DNA of 64,000 nucleotides from Pelagibacteraceae bacterium AG-430-E20 (GTDB taxonomy: Bacteria; Pseudomonadota; Alphaproteobacteria; Pelagibacterales; Pelagibacteraceae): assembly GCA_003209915.1 (NCBI GenBank), contig QCOF01000006.1, positions 1-64,000 on the forward strand, in the 5' to 3' direction. A program made the position numbers and the translations under genes. The notes beneath the pieces are model-generated. The model saw only the letters and a program-made list of their open reading frames with translations, made no database searches and had not been told where the DNA came from. Below, one piece after another: positions 9,830-18,691 of this stretch (its first letter is position 1; every line of letters begins with the position of its first letter).

Positions 9830-11578
9830 TTGATAATACTCGGAATAAATTCATATCATGCTAACTCATCTGCTGCATTATTGGTAGATGGTAAGATAGT
9901 TTTTGCGATAGAAGAAGAACGTTTAAATAGGATTAAGAATTCAGGAGGATTTCCTTACTTATCAATTTTAGAGTGTCTAAAATATAAAAAAATAAATTTA
10001 AACGATATAAATTTTATTGCGATTAATACAAATCCTAAAAAATTTTTACTTAAAAAAATTACGTTTGGTTTAAAAAATTTAATTAGTTATAAAAATTTAA
10101 AATATAAAGTCTTAGATATTAACAGAAAACTTTCTATATATGATGAAATTAATAATTTACAAAATTTTGGAAAATTTAATGGCAATATTATAAATGTAGA
10201 ACATCATAAAACACATATTGCATCATCATTTTACGTTTCAAAATTTAAAGATGCTGTAGGCGTATCTGTAGATGGGTCAGGTGATTTCACAACGACCTCA
10301 AGGGCTAATTGCTATGATACAAATATTGAAATTAATGATAGAGTGCATTATCCACACTCTTTAGGCATATTTTATACTGCGATAACCAATTTTTTAGGCT
10401 TCAATACATTTGGGGAGGAGTACAAAGTAATGGCTCTAGCAGCATTAGGCAAACCAGAATTAGATAAAAAATTATCAGAAACGATTTTTTTTTATGATAA
10501 TGGTCAATTTAAATTAAATTTGAAATATTTTTTACATCACAAAAATATAAATACTTTCTCAACCATAGACAATAAGATCATTATTAATAATTTAATTGAT
10601 GAAATTAAATTCAGCGAATTAATAGGATTCAAAAAACGAAATAGGAATCATCAACTTGAGCAGAAGCATTTTAATTTAGCATATTCATTACAAAGTTTGT
10701 TCGAAAGAGCATATCTAAATTATATAAGTGCTGCCGCAGATGAATCTTCTTCTCAAAATTTATGTCTTGCTGGTGGTTGTGCAATGAATTCTGTTGCAAA
10801 TGGAAAAATAATTGAAAAAACAAAATTTAAAAATATATATCTCCAGCCAGCGGCTTATGATGCTGGTGGTGCTATTGGTGCTGCTCTTTCTGTATATTAC
10901 GAAAAAAACAAAATTAGAAAATTTGAGGATTTTAATCTTTACTTAGGACCAAAATATACAAATGACTATATAAAGAAAGCTATTCAAGAAAATGAAAGTA
11001 ATTTTACAGAAAAAAATATAAAAGTAGAAAATTTAATTGATAAAGAAGAGGAACTACTTGTAAAAATTGTTAGTTATTTAACAGAAAAAAAAATTATTGG
11101 TATTTTTAAGGGAAAAGTGGAGTGGGGCGCAAGAGCTTTAGGAAATAGATCAATAGTAGCGGACCCCAGAGGAAATGAAATTAAAAATATTCTGAATTCG
11201 AAAATTAAAAGACGAGAGTCATTTAGACCTTTTGCTCCAATAATTTTATATGAACATTTAAAAAATTGGTTTGAATTAGAAAGAGAAATTTCAACAATGA
11301 TGGAAGTTCACAAAGTTAAAAAAGAGAAAAGTACTTTTATACCAGCTGTAGTTCACATTGATCAAAGTTGTAGACTACAGACCTTAAATAAACATGATAA
11401 CCCATTTATGCATAAATTAATAAGTTTATTTTATAAAAAAACTAATGTGCCAATTTTACTTAATACGTCATTTAATGAAAATGAACCAATAGTATGCAAA
11501 CCAGAAGAGGCTATAAAAACTTTTTTACGAACAGAAATGGATATTTTATTATTAGAGGATTATTTACTTATTAGATAA
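9830..11578 (+). CDS. NodU/CmcH-family O-carbamoyltransferase
   Basis: Full-length (582 aa) carbamoyltransferase. The N-terminal Kae1-like domain shows ILGINSYHANSSAALL, AIEEERLNRIKNSGGFP, VEHHKTHIASSF and GVSVDGSGD. Mid-protein is LAGGCAMNSVANGK near residue 314, and the C-terminal YrdC-like domain has WGARALGNRSIVADPR, FRPFAPIIL and LLNTSFNENEPIV. The family uses carbamoyl phosphate and ATP to place a carbamoyl group on a hydroxyl of a sugar or secondary metabolite. The start is TTG with no ATG nearby. In this setting it probably carbamoylates a sugar of the surface glycan (inference). Confidence 0.9.
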   Translation: MIILGINSYHANSSAALLVDGKIVFAIEEERLNRIKNSGGFPYLSILECLKYKKINLNDINFIAINTNPKKFLLKKITFGLKNLISYKNLKYKVLDINRKLSIYDEINNLQNFGKFNGNIINVEHHKTHIASSFYVSKFKDAVGVSVDGSGDFTTTSRANCYDTNIEINDRVHYPHSLGIFYTAITNFLGFNTFGEEYKVMALAALGKPELDKKLSETIFFYDNGQFKLNLKYFLHHKNINTFSTIDNKIIINNLIDEIKFSELIGFKKRNRNHQLEQKHFNLAYSLQSLFERAYLNYISAAADESSSQNLCLAGGCAMNSVANGKIIEKTKFKNIYLQPAAYDAGGAIGAALSVYYEKNKIRKFEDFNLYLGPKYTNDYIKKAIQENESNFTEKNIKVENLIDKEEELLVKIVSYLTEKKIIGIFKGKVEWGARALGNRSIVADPRGNEIKNILNSKIKRRESFRPFAPIILYEHLKNWFELEREISTMMEVHKVKKEKSTFIPAVVHIDQSCRLQTLNKHDNPFMHKLISLFYKKTNVPILLNTSFNENEPIVCKPEEAIKTFLRTEMDILLLEDYLLIR

Positions 11579-11590
11579 TTATATTCAATT

Positions 11591-13318
11591 TCAAAAAATA
11601 CTTGGAATAATTATATAATAACTTAATTTATTCTTTACTTTTATTTGTTTAGTTACTTCTTCAAAATGAGTACAAGGACCTTTTGAATACATACACAGCC
11701 TATATTTAGGATTATAAATTTTAAAATCATTTAAGAACAATATTTCAGAATTATTTTGCTCAAGATTTGTTTCATCGTAAGCATAAATATTTGGCCATGG
11801 ATAATCATTATAAGTAAAGTTATATTTTTTTACTATTCTATTTAAATTATTTAGAACTACAAAAATTATAGATATTAATAGAATATATTTTAATTTTTTA
11901 AGAATTTCCTCAATTCTACTTACGTAAAAAAATTTGTATATAGCGAAACTGGCAAGCAATATTATAGCACTTACTATGAAAGAATATCCGTATCTGTAAA
12001 GTGGAAATTTTAGAAACCATAAAATACATCCAATTAAGTTAATTGAAAAACAAACATAAAAAATTTTATTAATTAAATTATTTTTATCTTTTATTCTTTT
12101 TATGGAAGATCTATTTTTTTCAGTTTTGTATAAAATAATCAATATTATAAAAATTATTGAAATAAGAGGAAGTAATTTTACAATTAAGTACTTAAAATGC
12201 TTATTTAACCATGTAGGTAACCAAGTAAAATTTTTGTTAAATTCATTTTTACTAACCTTAGGATTTTTTAAATCAGCCCAGCCTTTTGACGCAACCTCGC
12301 TTTCAATTCCTCTCCTCTCAGGATTAGCGTGCATTTCTTTTTTAATTGCACTCCAGGAAAGATTATCAAAACACAAGGTATTTATGGGATAAATAATACA
12401 AGAACTGACTAAAACATTTTTTATAAATAAACTTAATAAAAAAATTATTAAGATAGAGTTTTTAAAATTATATAAAAAATTATATTTTTTGAAATAAATG
12501 ATAAAAAAAATTGGGAATAAGAAAGAAGTAAAAAGAAAAACTTTGTTAGCAAATGCAAAAATACAAAACAGGCTTAAATAAAAAAAATTTATATATTTTT
12601 GTTTATTAAAATAAATTTGATCCAAAAAAATTGATAATACTAAAAAATAAAAAAGGTGACCAATTACATCATTGCCGATATCGTTATATCTACTATTTTT
12701 TAATAAAATGAAAACAGTAGTTAAGAAGAAAAAAACTAAAAAGAAATAATTATTTTTTTTTTTTAAAAAGGTTTTAATAAAAAATAATATTACAGTAGAT
12801 AAAATAATAGATATTGGCAAGGTAATACCTTTAGTCGAGAATAAAGAATTGTTAAATATTGCTGAAGTGTATTGAATTATAGATGTATGTCCAAATCTGA
12901 AGTGAACATTTGAAATTCCAATAATTGTTTTATATTCATTTAAAATAGAAATATAAGGCAAATGATATAGTCCAGCATCTGGACTATAACTGTGATCTAA
13001 TAATATAATTAAAAATGAAACTGATCCAATTAAAAATATAATTTTCATATAAGAGAATAAATTTCTCTCTTCAGCTTGATAAATTTTGATTAATGCAAAA
13101 AATGATATTAGTAAGATTATATTATTTAAAGTCGTATTTAGTGGAAAAAAAAAATTAAGTATTAATGCAGCAAAACTTAAATAAATAATTCCAGACAAAA
13201 CATCAAAAATTATATTTTTTTCGCCTTTCAGATCTTTAAATATGAATAAATTGATTAATCTTCCAATAGCCAAAAAAATTGCCACTGAAATCAAATTTGA
13301 TATATAAAGAAAGACCAT
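11591..13318 (-). CDS. Multi-pass membrane protein, GT-C-like (unknown function)
   Basis: A 575-residue polytopic membrane protein with at least ten hydrophobic segments and a soluble C-terminal tail of about 90 residues. A periplasmic-loop stretch near residue 110 (DHSYSPDAGLYHLPY, then SNVHFRFGHTS) is reminiscent of the first loop of GT-C transferases, where acidic residues bind the lipid-linked donor, and of the LIC_10190-type membrane family. Its ATG and the ATG of the divergent Dpm1-like gene share the palindrome CATATG, leaving no intergenic DNA. The pairing suggests that it uses the lipid-phosphate sugar made by that neighbour. I do not recognise a precise family. Confidence 0.65.
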   Translation of the reverse strand: MVFLYISNLISVAIFLAIGRLINLFIFKDLKGEKNIIFDVLSGIIYLSFAALILNFFFPLNTTLNNIILLISFFALIKIYQAEERNLFSYMKIIFLIGSVSFLIILLDHSYSPDAGLYHLPYISILNEYKTIIGISNVHFRFGHTSIIQYTSAIFNNSLFSTKGITLPISIILSTVILFFIKTFLKKKNNYFFLVFFFLTTVFILLKNSRYNDIGNDVIGHLFYFLVLSIFLDQIYFNKQKYINFFYLSLFCIFAFANKVFLFTSFLFPIFFIIYFKKYNFLYNFKNSILIIFLLSLFIKNVLVSSCIIYPINTLCFDNLSWSAIKKEMHANPERRGIESEVASKGWADLKNPKVSKNEFNKNFTWLPTWLNKHFKYLIVKLLPLISIIFIILIILYKTEKNRSSIKRIKDKNNLINKIFYVCFSINLIGCILWFLKFPLYRYGYSFIVSAIILLASFAIYKFFYVSRIEEILKKLKYILLISIIFVVLNNLNRIVKKYNFTYNDYPWPNIYAYDETNLEQNNSEILFLNDFKIYNPKYRLCMYSKGPCTHFEEVTKQIKVKNKLSYYIIIPSIF

Positions 13319-14014
13319 ATGAAATTGACAATTATTATACCTTGTTACAATGAAAAAAACACAATCAAAAAGTTAATAGATAAAATAATAAATTTAAATT
13401 TATCAAAACAGATAATTTTAGTAGATGATTTTTCTACAGATGGTTCTAGAGAAATAATTAAGATGTTCAAGAATAGAATAGATAAAATAATTTACCACAA
13501 TAAAAATATGGGTAAGGGAGCAGCAATTAAATCAACTTTTAACTTCATATTGGGTGACTTTGTTGTAATACAAGATGCTGACCTAGAATATAATCCTGAT
13601 GATTTGGTTAAAATGTATAATTTAATGCTTTCTATGAAGCATGATGTACTCTACGGGTCAAGAGTTCTAGGTAAAAATAGATACAAGGATAATAAAGGTT
13701 TTACATCAATTTTTAGAATTTTTGCAAATCATTTTTTGACAGAAATTTCAAACTTGATTAATAAACAAAAATTAACTGATGCACATACTTGTTACAAAAT
13801 GTTCAAAACTGCTATTTTTAAAAAGATCAATCTTAAGGAAAATGATTTTTCATTTTGTCCTGAAGTTACAACCAAATTGTCAAATTTTAAAATACCAATT
13901 GATGAAGTGGCAATATCTTACAAAGGTAGGTCTTATGAAGAAGGTAAAAAGATATCATTTAAAGATGCCTTGAAAGCCATTTATGTGATATTTAAATATT
14001 CTATTTATAAATGA
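13319..14014 (+). CDS. Dpm1-like polyprenyl-phosphate glycosyltransferase
   Basis: A short, membrane-tail-free GT2 of the dolichol/undecaprenyl-phosphate mannose synthase type. Motifs: LTIIIPCYNEKNTI, LVDDFSTDGS, GKGAAIKS, the metal-binding QDADLEYNPDDL near residue 82 and YGSRVLG. The ending GRSYEEGKKISFKDALKAIY is typical of the subgroup. It likely charges polyprenyl phosphate with a sugar for a GT-C partner. It opens a three-gene operon with gmd and fcl (ATGA overlaps), and its start codon touches that of the divergent membrane protein. Related to the protein at 27319-28029. Confidence 0.87.
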   Translation: MKLTIIIPCYNEKNTIKKLIDKIINLNLSKQIILVDDFSTDGSREIIKMFKNRIDKIIYHNKNMGKGAAIKSTFNFILGDFVVIQDADLEYNPDDLVKMYNLMLSMKHDVLYGSRVLGKNRYKDNKGFTSIFRIFANHFLTEISNLINKQKLTDAHTCYKMFKTAIFKKINLKENDFSFCPEVTTKLSNFKIPIDEVAISYKGRSYEEGKKISFKDALKAIYVIFKYSIYK

Positions 14015-15051
14015 AAAAAAAAAATAAAACTGCTCTTATATTTGGTGTAACAGGACAAGACGGAGCATATCTATCAAAATTTCTTCTAAAAAAAAATTAT
14101 GTAGTTCATGGTGTAAAAAGGAGACATTCATCAATCAATACTTATAGAATAGATGATATATATAGAGATCAATTTGGAAAGAAAAAGAATTTTCAATTGC
14201 ATTATGGAGATGTAACAGACTCTTTATCAATACATAATATCATAAAAAAAGTAAAACCAAATGAAATCTATAATCTTGCAGCTCAATCACATGTTGCTGT
14301 GTCATTTGAGCTTCCTGAGTATACTACAAATGCTGACGCTTTAGGCACACTAAGAATTTTAGAAACAATAGTAAAAATAGATAAAAATATAAAATTTTAT
14401 CAAGCGGGAAGTTCTGAAATGTTTGGTAAAGTTGTTGAGAGTCCACAAAATGAAAAAACTCCATTTTATCCGAGAAGTCCGTATGGAGCAGCTAAATTAT
14501 ATTCTCACTGGATAACAATAAACTATAGAGAAGCTTATAAATTATTTGCTTGTAATGGAATATTATTTAATCATGAAAGTCCATTAAGAGGAGAAACTTT
14601 TGTAACAAAAAAAATTGTCAGTGGCTTATGTAGAATAAAAAATGGCAATCAAAAGAAATTATATCTAGGTAATCTTTATGCAAAAAGAGATTGGGGACAT
14701 GCAGAAGATTATGTTGAAGCAATGTGGAAAATTCTTCAACATAATATGGCTGACGACTTTGTAATATCCACAGGAAAGCAATATTCGATAAAACAATTTA
14801 TAAATATGGTAGCCAAACAATTAAGTATGAAATTAAAATGGAAAGGAGCCGGCATAAATGAAAAAGCATACGATGAGAATAAAAATTGTGTAATTGAATG
14901 TAATATTAAATATTTTCGTAAATCTGAAGTTGACACTTTACAAGGAGATTATTCAAAAGCTAAAAAAATATTAAAATGGAAACCTAAACATAATATTAAT
15001 TCATTAATTAAAGACATGGTAGATCATGAGCTAAATTTATTATTTAAATGA
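14011..15051 (+). CDS. gmd: GDP-mannose 4,6-dehydratase
   Basis: An extended SDR converting GDP-D-mannose to GDP-4-keto-6-deoxymannose, first step to GDP-L-fucose. Evidence: cofactor motif GVTGQDGAYL at residues 12-21, the GMD-specific VHGVKRRHSSINTYRID, the active-site YGAAK near residue 157, NHESPLRGETFVTKKI and YAKRDWGHAEDYVEAMW. Length 346 matches the family (about 345-370). It overlaps the preceding gene and fcl by 4 bp each, so the three are translationally coupled. This shows that fucose (or a derived 6-deoxyhexose) is a component of the glycan, assuming GDP-mannose is made elsewhere. Confidence 0.96.
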   Translation: MKKKNKTALIFGVTGQDGAYLSKFLLKKNYVVHGVKRRHSSINTYRIDDIYRDQFGKKKNFQLHYGDVTDSLSIHNIIKKVKPNEIYNLAAQSHVAVSFELPEYTTNADALGTLRILETIVKIDKNIKFYQAGSSEMFGKVVESPQNEKTPFYPRSPYGAAKLYSHWITINYREAYKLFACNGILFNHESPLRGETFVTKKIVSGLCRIKNGNQKKLYLGNLYAKRDWGHAEDYVEAMWKILQHNMADDFVISTGKQYSIKQFINMVAKQLSMKLKWKGAGINEKAYDENKNCVIECNIKYFRKSEVDTLQGDYSKAKKILKWKPKHNINSLIKDMVDHELNLLFK

Positions 15052-15980
15052 TTACAAAAAATTCTAAAATATTTTTAGCAGGTCACAAAGGCTTGATTGG
15101 ATCTGCTATCCTAAGAAAACTAAGAAGATTAAAGTATAAAAAAATTTTTACTATTGAAAGAGCTAAATTAGATTTACGTGATCAAAAAAAAGTTAATGAA
15201 TATCTTAGAAAAATTAGACCTGATGGAGTTATAATAGCTGCTGCAAAAGTTGGAGGAATAAAAGCAAACAATGAACTAAGGGCAAATTTTATATTTGATA
15301 ACCTATCAATACAAAACAATATAATAGATGGTAGTTACAGAGCAGGTGTCAAAAATTTAATTTTTCTGGGGTCTAGCTGTGTTTATCCTAAAAATTGTAA
15401 GAAACCAATCAAAGAAAAATACCTTTTATCTAATTACTTAGAGAAAACCAATGAACCATATGCTATCGCAAAGATAGCAGGCATAAGTTTGACTCAAAGT
15501 TATAATTTTCAATACAATTTAAACTACAAATGTTTAATGCCTTGTAATTCTTATGGTATTAACGATAATTATGAAACTAATAGCTCACATTTTTTTCCAG
15601 CTTTGATAAGAAAATTAATAGAGTCCAAGCGTTATAATAAAGATCATATTAAAATCTGGGGATCTGGAAAACCTTTAAGAGAATTAATATATTCCGACGA
15701 TATAGCTGATGCATGTGTATTTTTTTTAAAAAAAAAAACTAAAGAAACATTAATTAATATTGGAACAGGTCATGAAAAATCTATTACAAATTATGCAAAA
15801 TTTATAATGAAAAACTTAAAAATTAAAAAAAAAATAATTTATGAAAAAAAAAAATTAGAGGGTACTTATAGTAAGCTATTGGATGTTTCTCTTGCAAAAA
15901 AATATGGTTGGAAATACAAAACTTCATTAGAGATTGGTTTATCACATACTATCAACGATTTTTTAAAAAAAAATAGTTAA
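15048..15980 (+). CDS. fcl: GDP-L-fucose synthase
   Basis: Bifunctional 3,5-epimerase/4-reductase that turns GDP-4-keto-6-deoxymannose into GDP-L-fucose. The N-terminus has FLAGHKGLIGSAI, then AAAKVGGIKANN, the family signature GSSCVYPKNCKKPIKE and the active-site Tyr/Lys in YAIAK near residue 138. GKPLRELIYSDDIADAC follows in the substrate domain. The 310-residue length is normal. It overlaps gmd by 4 bp (ATGA) and is the last protein gene before the 5S rRNA promoter. A run of A (about 10) occurs in the coding sequence near 15730. Confidence 0.95.
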   Translation: MITKNSKIFLAGHKGLIGSAILRKLRRLKYKKIFTIERAKLDLRDQKKVNEYLRKIRPDGVIIAAAKVGGIKANNELRANFIFDNLSIQNNIIDGSYRAGVKNLIFLGSSCVYPKNCKKPIKEKYLLSNYLEKTNEPYAIAKIAGISLTQSYNFQYNLNYKCLMPCNSYGINDNYETNSSHFFPALIRKLIESKRYNKDHIKIWGSGKPLRELIYSDDIADACVFFLKKKTKETLINIGTGHEKSITNYAKFIMKNLKIKKKIIYEKKKLEGTYSKLLDVSLAKKYGWKYKTSLEIGLSHTINDFLKKNS

Positions 15981-16001
15981 AAAATTGAGAGTATATATTA
16001 A

Positions 16002-16029
16002 TTGACAACTTTAAATTCTATTATATAAA
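16002..16029 (+). promoter_or_regulatory. Sigma-70 promoter of the orphan 5S rRNA
   Basis: A perfect -35 hexamer TTGACA (16002-16007) is followed after 16 nt by TATAAA (16024-16029). The expected transcription start, about 7 nt downstream, coincides with the 5' end of 5S rRNA at 16036. A separate promoter is expected because no 23S gene lies upstream. Confidence 0.7.
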
Positions 16030-16035
16030 TCTGGA

Positions 16036-16151
16036 GCCTAGTGACTATTGCGAAAGAGTAATACCCGATCCCATTCCGAACTCGGAAGTCAAGACTTTCT
16101 GCGCCAATGGTACTTTGTCTTAAGACACGGAAGAGTAGGACGTTGCTAGGC
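16036..16151 (+). rRNA. rrf: 5S ribosomal RNA
   Basis: The ends pair as helix I (GCCTAG at 16036-16041 with CTAGGC at 16146-16151). Inside are the universally conserved 5S segments CCCGATCCCATTCCG and GAACTCGGAAGT, and a plausible helix IV/V. Length about 116 nt is normal. There is no 16S, 23S or tRNA gene next to it: upstream is fcl and downstream an epimerase gene starting 9 nt later. No intrinsic terminator follows, so transcription probably continues into the downstream genes. Exact ends may differ by a few nucleotides. Confidence 0.95.
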
Positions 16152-16160
16152 ACAAACCAA

Positions 16161-17048
16161 ATGAAAAATCTTGTAATCGTAACTGGGGGAGCAGGTTTTG
16201 TAGGCTCTAATTTAATTGAAATGCTAATTAAAAAAACAAGTTTTAAAATTACTAGTTTAGATAATTACTCCTCAGGCAGTGAAAAAAATCATATACCAAA
16301 TAATAGAGTTAATTATGTAAAAGGTGAAACATCAAATATTAATAAAATATTTGAAAATAAAAAAAAAAATATAAAAGCTATTTTTCATTTTGGAGAATTC
16401 TCGAGAATTTTTCAAAGTTTCAAAAAATTTGATAAATGTTATGAATCAAATAGTATAGGGTCAAAGGCAGTGTTTAAGTTTTGTTTAGACAATAAAATAA
16501 AACTTATTTATTCAGCAACATCTGCAAGTTTTGGAAATAATGGTAATGATAAAAATCTTTCTCCATATGCATTTACCAAATCGAAAAATTTAGAATTATT
16601 GGAAAATTTAAAAAAATGGTTTAATTTTAAATTTGAGGTTATATTTTTCTATAATGTATATGGCCCAAGACAAATCAAAGTTGGCGACATGGCAACCGTC
16701 ATTGGAATATTTGAGTATCAGTATTTAAAAAAAAAACCACTTAGTGTGGTCAGACCAGGTAATCAAACCAGAAGATTTACTCATATTTATGATACTGTTA
16801 AAATTTGTTATGATGCTTTTAAGGCTGATAAATGTAAATATTACAGCATTAGCCATAGATCCTCATATTCAATATTAGAGGTTGCAAAATTGTTTAGAAG
16901 CAAAATTGTTTTTCTAAAACCCAGATTAGGTGAAAGATATGCCTCAGCTTTAACTAAAATAACTCATAATAACAAAATTATTCAAAAATATGGAAAATTA
17001 GAATTGAAAGATTACATATCTTCCTTTACTAAGTCTCATAAAATATGA
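16161..17048 (+). CDS. NAD-dependent nucleotide-sugar epimerase/dehydratase
   Basis: Extended SDR, GalE-like. Starting at ATG 16161 the protein opens with [20 protein letters not shown], the standard TGGAGFxGS cofactor loop. It continues with SLDNYSSG, the Ser/Thr in ATSASFG, the active-site [15 protein letters not shown] and [15 protein letters not shown]. An in-frame upstream start at 16107 would lie inside the 5S gene and is rejected. At 295 residues it is slightly short of the usual 310-340. Its start codon is only 9 nt from the mature 5S 3' end with no ribosome binding site, and its TGA overlaps the rpmJ ATG. It probably makes a sugar nucleotide for the flanking glycan genes. Confidence 0.88.
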
Positions 17049-17170
17049 AAATAAAAAGTTCATTAAAGTCAATTAAAAAAAGAGACCTAAATTCTAAACT
17101 TGTAAGAAGAAGAGGTAGAATTTACGTAATCAATAAAATAAATCCAAAGTTTAAAGCAAGACAAAAGTAA
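17045..17170 (+). CDS. rpmJ: 50S ribosomal protein L36 (bL36)
   Basis: A 41-residue basic protein beginning [13 protein letters not shown] and containing [12 protein letters not shown] and NPKFKARQK. This is the alphaproteobacterial bL36 pattern, of the zinc-ligand-poor type (no Cys visible). The ATG overlaps the epimerase TGA by 4 bp. It joins the large subunit near 23S domains II/V. Co-transcription behind 5S rRNA and a variable sugar gene is unusual for an r-protein. Confidence 0.93.
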
Positions 17171-17173
17171 TTT

Positions 17174-17284
17174 ATGGATAGTGAAAACCATAAAAAAACT
17201 TGGAATAATTTTACCAAATTAGTGTTGTGGGGCACAATTGTAGTTATAAGTGTTTTAGTGTTAATGGCAATATTCTTAATATAA
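17174..17284 (+). CDS. aa3-type cytochrome c oxidase subunit IV-like small membrane protein
   Basis: A 36-residue protein, MDSENHKKTWNNFTKL followed by one membrane helix (VLWGTIVVISVLVLMAIFLI). The HxxTWxxFTKL-helix layout is that of the bacterial aa3 oxidase subunit IV family, often encoded just upstream of the transhydrogenase genes in Alphaproteobacteria. It lies 3 nt after rpmJ and 8 nt before pntAA, so it is in the same operon. A structural role in oxidase or another membrane complex is inferred from the family. Confidence 0.8.
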   Translation: MDSENHKKTWNNFTKLVLWGTIVVISVLVLMAIFLI

Positions 17285-17292
17285 ACTAATAT

Positions 17293-18381
17293 ATGAAAAT
17301 TGCTTCTATTTTAGAAAATCAAAAAACTGAAAACAGAATAGCAATTACTCCCGAAATTGCGAAAAAATATATTTCACTTGGATTTGAGGTTTCATTATCT
17401 GAAAATTATGGAAGTCATCTTGGAATAAAAGATGAAGAGTATACAGAGTTAGGAGTTTTAATTTCAAATGATGAAGAAGAAATCATAACAAACGCTGATA
17501 TTATTGTCCAATTAGGTTTAATGAGTGATGATAAAATTACTTTATTAAAAGAAAATCAAATATTCATAGGAGTCTTAAATCCATATGAAAATAAAGATAA
17601 AATAAACAATTTAGTTAAAAAAAATATTAATACTTTTTCACTAGAATTGCTTCCAAGGATAACAAGAGCTCAATCTATGGATATATTATCTTCCCAATCA
17701 AACCTAGCTGGCTATAAAGCAGTATTAGAGTCTTTTGCATACTTTGAAAAAGCTATTCCTATGATGATGACAGCGGCAGGTACTATTCCTGCAGCAAAAG
17801 TACTAGTTGTTGGAGCAGGAGTTGCTGGATTACAAGCTATTGCAACTGCTAAAAGAATGGGAGCTATTGTATTCGCTACAGATGTTAGAATGGCTTCAAA
17901 AGAACAAGTTGAAAGTTTAGGAGGAAAGTTTTTATCAGTTGAAGGTGCAGAAAATCTTGAGACTGAAGGGGGTTATGCTAAAGAAGCGTCAGATGATTTT
18001 AAAAAGAAACAAGAAGAATTATTATATGAAACCTTAAAGAAAATTGACATTGTAGTCTGTACTGCCTTAATTCCTGGAAAAAAAGCACCAGTGATTATTA
18101 AAGAATATATGATTGATAATATGAAAGCCGGTTCAATAATTTATGATCTAGCTGCGATACAAGGTGGAAACACAGCACATACTAAAGTAAATGAAATTAT
18201 TGATAAAAATGGAGTTAAAATAATGGGAGAAAGCAACATTTTAAATAAACTCCCAACATCTGCATCAAATTTGTACGCAAAAAATGTGTTTAATTTTGTT
18301 TCAAATTTATATGATAAAGACAACAAAAAAATAAATGTAAACTTAGAGGATGAGATAATTGAGAAAACTTTAATGAAATAA
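17293..18381 (+). CDS. pntAA: NAD(P) transhydrogenase subunit alpha, part 1
   Basis: The NAD(H)-binding dI component of proton-translocating transhydrogenase (362 aa, cytoplasmic). It shows the alanine-dehydrogenase-like fold: IASILENQKTENRIAITPE, the RAQSMDILSSQSNLAGYKAV segment and the nucleotide motif VVGAGVAGLQAIATAKRMGA near residue 173. The C-terminal GESNILNKLPTSASNLYAKN is typical. The alpha subunit is split into two genes as in Rhodospirillum. The complex uses proton-motive force to make NADPH from NADH. Confidence 0.96.
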   Translation: MKIASILENQKTENRIAITPEIAKKYISLGFEVSLSENYGSHLGIKDEEYTELGVLISNDEEEIITNADIIVQLGLMSDDKITLLKENQIFIGVLNPYENKDKINNLVKKNINTFSLELLPRITRAQSMDILSSQSNLAGYKAVLESFAYFEKAIPMMMTAAGTIPAAKVLVVGAGVAGLQAIATAKRMGAIVFATDVRMASKEQVESLGGKFLSVEGAENLETEGGYAKEASDDFKKKQEELLYETLKKIDIVVCTALIPGKKAPVIIKEYMIDNMKAGSIIYDLAAIQGGNTAHTKVNEIIDKNGVKIMGESNILNKLPTSASNLYAKNVFNFVSNLYDKDNKKINVNLEDEIIEKTLMK

Positions 18382-18385
18382 AATC

Positions 18386-18691
18386 ATGGAAATAGACCCT
18401 ATTATATTTAGACTAAGTATTTTTATTCTTTCAATTTTTATAGGATACTATGTGGTTTGGAGTGTAACTCCCTCACTGCATACTCCTTTAATGTCTGTTA
18501 CTAATGCAATTTCATCAGTAATAATTGTTGGCGCAATTATAGCAGGCTTAGCTGGAAATTCTGACACCATATTTAATAACTCAAGTATATTTGGGTTTTT
18601 AGCAATATCATTAGCTGCAATTAATATATTTGGGGGCTTTCTAGTAACCCAAAGAATGCTTGCTATGTATAAAAAAAAAAAGCGTAAATAA
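18386..18691 (+). CDS. pntAB: NAD(P) transhydrogenase subunit alpha, part 2
   Basis: A 101-residue membrane protein with three to four hydrophobic helices forming part of the dII proton channel. The segment VWSVTPSLHTPLMSVTNAISS is diagnostic of PntAB. It starts 4 nt after pntAA and its stop overlaps the pntB start by one base, giving the conserved pntAA-pntAB-pntB order. An 11-A run lies in the last codons (near 18670), where a slip would change only the C-terminal tail and the coupling to pntB. Confidence 0.95.
   Translation: MEIDPIIFRLSIFILSIFIGYYVVWSVTPSLHTPLMSVTNAISSVIIVGAIIAGLAGNSDTIFNNSSIFGFLAISLAAINIFGGFLVTQRMLAMYKKKKRK

Follow-up and report, generated by a model that had tools for sequence, protein, structure and literature searches.

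Genes and Features at the 5S rRNA Locus

The window analysed here is a stretch of 64,000 nt from a SAR11 bacterium of the family Pelagibacteraceae, whose assembly amounts to 1.18 Mb in 16 contigs and is 91.86% complete. A 5S rRNA gene lies on the plus strand at 16037–16151 (Rfam RF00001, 86.5 bits against a cut-off of 38 bits, spanning model positions 1–120). A search over all contigs returned this one 5S match in the whole assembly, and the mature 3′ end of the RNA is uncertain by 1–2 nt. The ATG at 16161, 9 nt past the end of the match, opens a 295-aa ORF for an extended-SDR nucleotide-sugar epimerase/dehydratase (16161–17048, plus strand; Pfam PF01370, 1.5e-28, 100.3 bits against a cut-off of 20.9). 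Its translation shows the N-terminal glycine motif TGGAGFVG and a YxxxK motif (YAFTK). The protein reaches no NCBIfam equivalog cut-off; the best models are ADP-heptose 6-epimerase (89.2 bits, cut-off 274.6) and dTDP-glucose 4,6-dehydratase (65.8 bits, cut-off 365.1). The epimerase stop codon overlaps the start of rpmJ as ATGA (17045–17048). rpmJ (17045–17170, plus strand) encodes type B ribosomal protein L36 (Pfam 5.4e-16; NCBIfam NF002021, 74.2 bits against a cut-off of 70) and has a single match in the assembly. It is followed on the same strand by a 36-aa ORF of the aa3-type cytochrome oxidase subunit IV family (COX4_pro_2; 17174–17284; Pfam PF07835, 4.6e-12) and by pntA, which forms the core flank (17293–18381; NCBIfam NF006942, 3.9e-112, 375.6 bits and thus slightly below the cut-off of 383).

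The other side of the 5S gene is occupied by surface-sugar genes, as expected at the margin of the SAR11 hypervariable region HVR2. Directly upstream lie gmd (510 bits, cut-off 415) and a GDP-L-fucose synthase-like gene (377 bits, below the cut-off of 500). A carbamoyltransferase gene with N and C domains and a TTG start (9830–11578) is found upstream of these sugar genes. The 5S gene is split from 16S, again as at the HVR2 margin, with 16S fragments on contig C3 and 5S on contig C6. No 23S gene was found in the incomplete assembly.

The gap between the 5S gene and the epimerase consists of nine nucleotides (acaaaccaa, 16152–16160, plus strand). This bears out the preliminary description of the locus, which had placed the ATG only 9 nt behind the 5S gene with no terminator, promoter or Shine-Dalgarno (SD) sequence between them. 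The length of the gap leaves no room for a terminator, and a promoter or terminator inside it is ruled out. A terminator scan of 13000–18500 returned a single candidate, on the minus strand (16751–16735), against 1.5 expected. The statement on promoters is correct for the gap but not for the upstream side of the 5S gene, where a TTGACA-N16-TATAAA pair is located at 16002–16029. An SD-like 4-mer is indeed absent from positions −20 to −4 of the ATG, but this is not special. Among the 66 window ORFs (ATG ORFs of at least 100 aa after an overlap filter, not curated genes) an SD-like word, as defined from a general anti-SD sequence with the 16S match in the assembly being partial, is present in 7 and lacking in 59. 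Absence of an SD sequence is thus normal here.

Conservation of the Junction in the Genus and Family

We searched 151 genomes of the genus (the window's included) and examined all 106 loci with a 5S match. In 101 of them a start codon (100 ATG, one GTG) follows 6–25 nt past the 5S gene, so that a structural RNA stands directly before a start codon without a terminator or promoter between them. As these loci are alike, the arrangement is not due to chance. rpmJ comes first after 5S in 59 loci (gap 6–25 nt, median 12) and the epimerase or a close homologue in 42 (gap 6–15 nt, median 9), the other 41 epimerases being 64–80% identical to that of the window. SD-like words are missing from positions −20 to −4 at all 101 junctions, and AGG, GGA or GAG occurs in none of the gaps.

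These homologues also bear on the choice of the epimerase start codon. In the window, the frame stays open upstream to an ATG at 16107 inside the 5S gene (16107–16160). An in-frame start codon within 5S or farther upstream occurs in 14 of the 42 epimerase homologues, while in the remaining 28 (the 42 including the window's own) an in-frame stop lies in the gap or in 5S with no alternative start before. Initiation at 16107 was rejected on these grounds, no such start being common to all, and 16161 is the sole start present throughout the set. A later start codon, the possibility raised against this ATG in the preliminary description, is unlikely because the glycine-rich NAD motif begins about eight residues into the ORF.

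Behind the epimerase, rpmJ was found in 39 of the 42 epimerase-first loci within the stretch examined. The two genes overlap or are separated by at most 8 nt in 37 of these 39, with ATGA in 17; the remaining two junctions measure 45 nt and 806 nt. The latter distance belongs to L039, in which rpmJ lies about 0.8 kb further downstream. Three epimerase-first loci have no rpmJ within the stretch examined, which covers 2 kb in L034 and L099 and 0.8 kb in L036.

Something else follows 5S in 5 of the 106 genus loci, and in four of these it is a gene on the opposite strand, which argues that 5S can work without a tightly spaced co-directional partner. Named by eye from their translations, these genes are a glycosyltransferase-like ORF before rpmJ in L056, L062 and L063 and a gmd-like gene in L087. 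The fifth locus, L040, has gmd- and fcl-like genes about 80 nt past 5S, likewise named by eye. Translocation of 5S has been reported in one Arctic SAR11 isolate (PMC12421898) and could parallel L040.

Searches of the family and the order matched 214 and 215 genomes, respectively; about 30 best-scoring loci of each were examined, and 21 further genomes were added by hand. Two cut-off 5S pieces of one genome, G159, were excluded (L199 and L200, the latter with the order 5S, 36 nt, rpmJ). This yielded 45 further family loci, 7 from the same genus and 38 from other genera, which are best-scoring or hand-picked rather than random: 38 are rpmJ-first, 6 epimerase-first and one has a different SDR gene. 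This gene, in L179 from another genus, encodes a protein with 27% identity, starts 11 nt past 5S and is followed by rpmJ. Judged by its sequence, it represents another type of sugar gene in this place behind 5S.

The median intergenic spacer in strain HTCC1062 is 3 nt (PMC2704228), and a short distance between 5S and the next gene is therefore ordinary for the lineage. With short spacers being usual and the core gene order largely conserved, selection cannot be deduced from the spacing alone or from the 5S–rpmJ adjacency alone.

A Putative Promoter and Weak Flank Pairing of the 5S Gene

The promoter-like pair of the window (16002–16029, plus strand) has 11 of 12 matches and ends 7 nt before the 5S match. 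The predicted transcription start coincides with the 5S 5′ end or lies next to it. In the genus loci, a TTTACA/TTGACA and TATAA-type pair ends 3–12 nt before the 5S match. With hexamers picked after the sequences had been seen, a pair with at least 9 of 12 matches is present in 104 of 106 genus loci compared to 429 of 2080 control positions taken upstream within these loci; for at least 10 matches the counts are 83 of 106 and 61 of 2080, and the mean score is 10.3 of 12 compared to 7.7 at the control positions. A general promoter scan gave no overall excess (40 sites versus 37.8 in shuffles) and omitted the pair at 16002–16029, since only sites with a final T in the −10 hexamer are listed by it. 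Taken from these sequence patterns, the 5S gene probably starts its own transcript.

The flanks of the 5S gene were compared between taxa as well. The flank duplex averages −15.8 in 16 order-mates of another family and −19.8 in 27 class loci from 21 genomes (L226 and L229, with 5S cut off, excluded), both well below shuffled sequences, and falls below −12 in 14 of the 16 and 22 of the 27. Such strong pairing resembles ordinary rRNA operons. In the window's family the values are −5.1, −4.3 and −3.9, no better than shuffled. 23S lies directly upstream of 5S in four of four order-mates and in the one class locus tested, but in none of three family loci, where no 23S was found within 1.5 kb upstream of 5S. 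Outlying subclades retain a single rRNA operon (PMC7318151; PMC3815206).

The Epimerase as a Variable Passenger

A pntA tree (FastTree) was built from the 140 of 151 family loci with enough pntA; it contains many weak forks and some short rows. On this tree, the change between the epimerase-first and rpmJ-first states requires at least 22 steps, nine of which are forced by well-supported branches. None of 500 shuffles was as low as 22, so the epimerase-first state is clustered and yet has switched often. Hence, the comparison identifies ribosomal protein L36, not the epimerase, as the stable partner of 5S, and the epimerase as a variable passenger supplied by the surface-sugar region nearby.

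The type of 5S gene and the presence of the passenger are associated. All 42 epimerase-first genus loci have an AGGC-type 5S ending, compared to 27 of 59 rpmJ-first loci; in the tree, 42 of 42 epimerase-first rows carry this ending. Among 97 genus rows, the epimerase state is shared with the nearest neighbour in 5S in 79.5 cases and with the nearest neighbour in pntA in 63. The association points to joint movement of 5S and the sugar gene, although a tree-corrected test did not reach significance: in the independent-pairs test of 5S type against epimerase, an average of 2.8 of 9 pairs pointed the same way and 0.0 the other way.

tRNA Genes With the Same Layout

Start codons also stand close behind tRNAs. 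Among the 30 tRNAs with an encoded CCA in the window's own genome, eight (L112, L116, L124, L125, L127, L128, L129 and L133) have an ORF start 2–10 nt past the CCA, the neighbours being mechanical ORFs of at least 80 aa. Two of these arrangements were followed through the genus in 61 genomes each, taking the best 30 loci of the 58 genomes with hisS and of the 54 with tig. tRNA-His precedes hisS by 4–7 nt in 23 of the 30 loci examined; in the other seven a tRNA-like end is visible without an ARAGORN call. tRNA-Leu precedes tig by 9–16 nt in 28 of 30, the remaining two gaps being 115 and 170 nt. This pattern suggests that 3′ ends of stable RNAs serve as 5′ ends of mRNAs in the lineage. Because tRNAs show the same layout as 5S, a special role of the junction in sugar synthesis is disfavoured.

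A Model for Expression From a Putative 5S Promoter

The kind of system proposed here is a structural-RNA-headed operon. We propose that the single 5S gene left the rRNA operon in this family and took up the first position in a mixed RNA/protein operon with the order promoter, 5S, variable sugar gene (where present), rpmJ, often a cox4-like gene, and pntA. RNA polymerase would start at or near the 5S 5′ end and transcribe through into the next gene. Read-through is proposed because a terminator is absent behind 5S; Rho-dependent termination inside the downstream gene may work against it. A nuclease would then cut at or just past the 5S 3′ end, which would yield mature 5S and an mRNA in one event. 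The freed mRNA would have about 6–12 nt before the AUG, no SD sequence and leaderless-type translation. The epimerase would enter and leave at the 5S/rpmJ boundary beside HVR2, and when present it mostly overlaps or abuts rpmJ, so that L36 translation is probably coupled to it. On balance we consider it probable that a transcript initiated at the 5S promoter runs through 5S into the next gene, is cut behind the RNA and is then translated, for the sugar gene and/or rpmJ, in a near-leaderless manner. Read-through, cleavage and leaderless translation, as well as any purpose of the arrangement, we infer from gene order, spacing, the promoter-like pair, the missing SD sequence, the lack of room for a terminator and the conservation of all these. 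As for purpose, 5S and L36 are both parts of the large subunit and may be kept together by selection; the pairing could also result, without any function, from tight packing in general and from a conserved order of core genes.

The preliminary description had left two options for the mRNA, namely a 5′ leader formed by 5S or a nearly leaderless state after trimming of 5S. This alternative follows from a gap too short for a terminator or promoter, and it fits the anatomy of 101 of the 106 genus loci. Of its two branches, translation of an uncut transcript, with 5S remaining attached as a folded leader for regulation or stability of the mRNA, appears improbable to us. In its favour, a canonical ribosome site would not fit into the gap, and folding does not indicate masking of the start codon by 5S: accessibility of the start site is alike with 5S attached and removed (0.63 and 0.64). 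In the minimum-energy fold the window's 5S pairs with the coding region, and helix I is retained in 60 of 101 folded junctions. Against an uncut leader, this 5S gene is the only copy found and ribosomes need the RNA freed, a stem ending about 9 nt before the AUG should collide with the small subunit, and tRNA-headed ORFs with 4-nt gaps point to excision. It is less probable still that the last AGG of 5S (GCCAGGC; here GCTAGGC) serves as the SD sequence of the downstream gene once helix I opens. The AGG lies 7–16 nt before the start (10 nt in the window), and the restriction of the epimerase-first loci to the AGGC-type ending would agree with such a role. Yet this association is accounted for by shared inheritance, the motif is missing in 32 of 59 rpmJ-first loci, and the AGG is paired within 5S and weak as an SD sequence.

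Two further readings concern the purpose of the arrangement. The preliminary description saw in it a link between sugar-nucleotide synthesis and rRNA transcription, with the 5S promoter tying surface-sugar synthesis to growth rate. The occurrence of two SDR types at the same position (the epimerase homologues and the SDR of L179) speaks for such a coupling. On the other hand, rpmJ rather than the epimerase directly follows 5S in more than half of the genus loci, the two states have switched repeatedly on the tree, opposite-strand inserts also occur, and the neighbouring sugar region by itself explains the supply of sugar genes. Overlap of the epimerase with rpmJ, or direct abutment, at nearly all measurable junctions disfavours the link as well. 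We therefore regard a purposeful coupling as unlikely; the connection to sugar synthesis looks incidental. Plain streamlining is a much stronger contender, with a chance that we put only a little short of even. It holds that genes are tightly packed, that co-transcription of 5S with the following gene is accidental and reflects no functional link, and that a 5S leader is nothing special. This reading opposes a purpose but not the transcript and the cut, and its probability thus overlaps with that of the cut-transcript model. The short spacers of HTCC1062 (PMC2704228), the tRNAs with the same layout, the general scarcity of SD-like words in the window and the 5S loci with other neighbours all agree with it. 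It accounts less well for rpmJ keeping its place beside 5S, or beside 5S and one sugar gene, in most family loci despite the hypervariable border, and for the promoter-like pair that 5S commonly has of its own.

A broader extension of the cut-transcript model is conceivable, though we consider it somewhat less likely than not. SAR11 would use a mitochondrion-like punctuation in which the 3′ ends of 5S and several tRNAs are mRNA 5′ ends and maturation enzymes create leaderless mRNAs. One cut would tie an RNA of the 50S subunit (5S) to a protein of the same subunit (rpmJ), and exchange at the HVR could carry the sole 5S gene of the cell together with a surface-sugar gene. Few cells in the sea are as abundant as SAR11 bacteria. 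If the extension is true, gene expression in this streamlined bacterium, although free-living, would have RNA processing as one of its core steps, in a way resembling mitochondria; trimming of stable RNAs would make the mRNA of the 5S operon and also those of hisS and tig, and exchange of surface-sugar genes could touch a single-copy rRNA gene.

Relation to Known Systems

In mitochondrial tRNA punctuation, structural RNAs stand against start codons and their excision yields leaderless mRNAs. The arrangement proposed here differs in that it concerns a free-living bacterium and would have 5S as well as tRNAs as the excised units. Bacterial tRNA–mRNA co-transcripts such as that of E. coli tufB likewise join a structural RNA and a protein gene in one transcript, as we propose for 5S. 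They have a longer spacer with a ribosome site, whereas the gaps described here are mostly 2–16 nt and without an SD sequence. Leaderless mRNAs are common in actinobacteria (PMC3848588; PMC4633059). Translation from 0–10-nt leaders is shared with the proposed system, but the actinobacterial 5′ ends come from transcription starts and not from trimming of a structural RNA, as these reports describe them.

Parts of the SAR11 locus have been described before. The rRNA genes are split, with HVR2 between 23S and 5S, and have been proposed as recombination anchors (Wilhelm et al., 2007; PMC2217521). The window agrees with this account in having its sole 5S gene beside a surface-polysaccharide region and apparently apart from 23S. 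In that account 5S is the border of the region, while here a sugar gene lies beyond 5S in the 42 epimerase-first genus loci. The available text of the paper does not discuss the junction between 5S and the start codon. Among the genes annotated in front of the pntA element in metagenome data, 5S and rmlB are the most frequent, and in HTCC1062 rpmJ precedes the element (Meyer et al., 2009; PMC2704228). The order rpmJ, pntA element, pntA in the window is the one reported for HTCC1062, and the rmlB of that study would correspond to the epimerase described here. A junction of about 10 nt or co-transcription with 5S is not mentioned in the accessible portion of that article. Thus, the split 5S gene and HVR2, as well as 5S or rmlB before the pntA element and rpmJ in HTCC1062, are already known. 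Within the accessible text of the open-licence literature searched, we found no report for SAR11 of co-transcription of 5S with rpmJ or of leaderless translation downstream of 5S, and no account of the SAR11 5S/start-codon junction or of RNA-punctuated leaderless expression.

The pntA element itself deserves a comment. The Rfam "pntA sRNA" match (RF01810, 17170–17231) lies over the start of the COX4_pro_2 ORF. This ORF was not found in all of the loci compared. In an alignment of 75 sequences it evolves as a coding region, with a pN/pS of 0.18 and 62% of the differences at third positions, and RF01810 may in fact represent a gene for a small protein.
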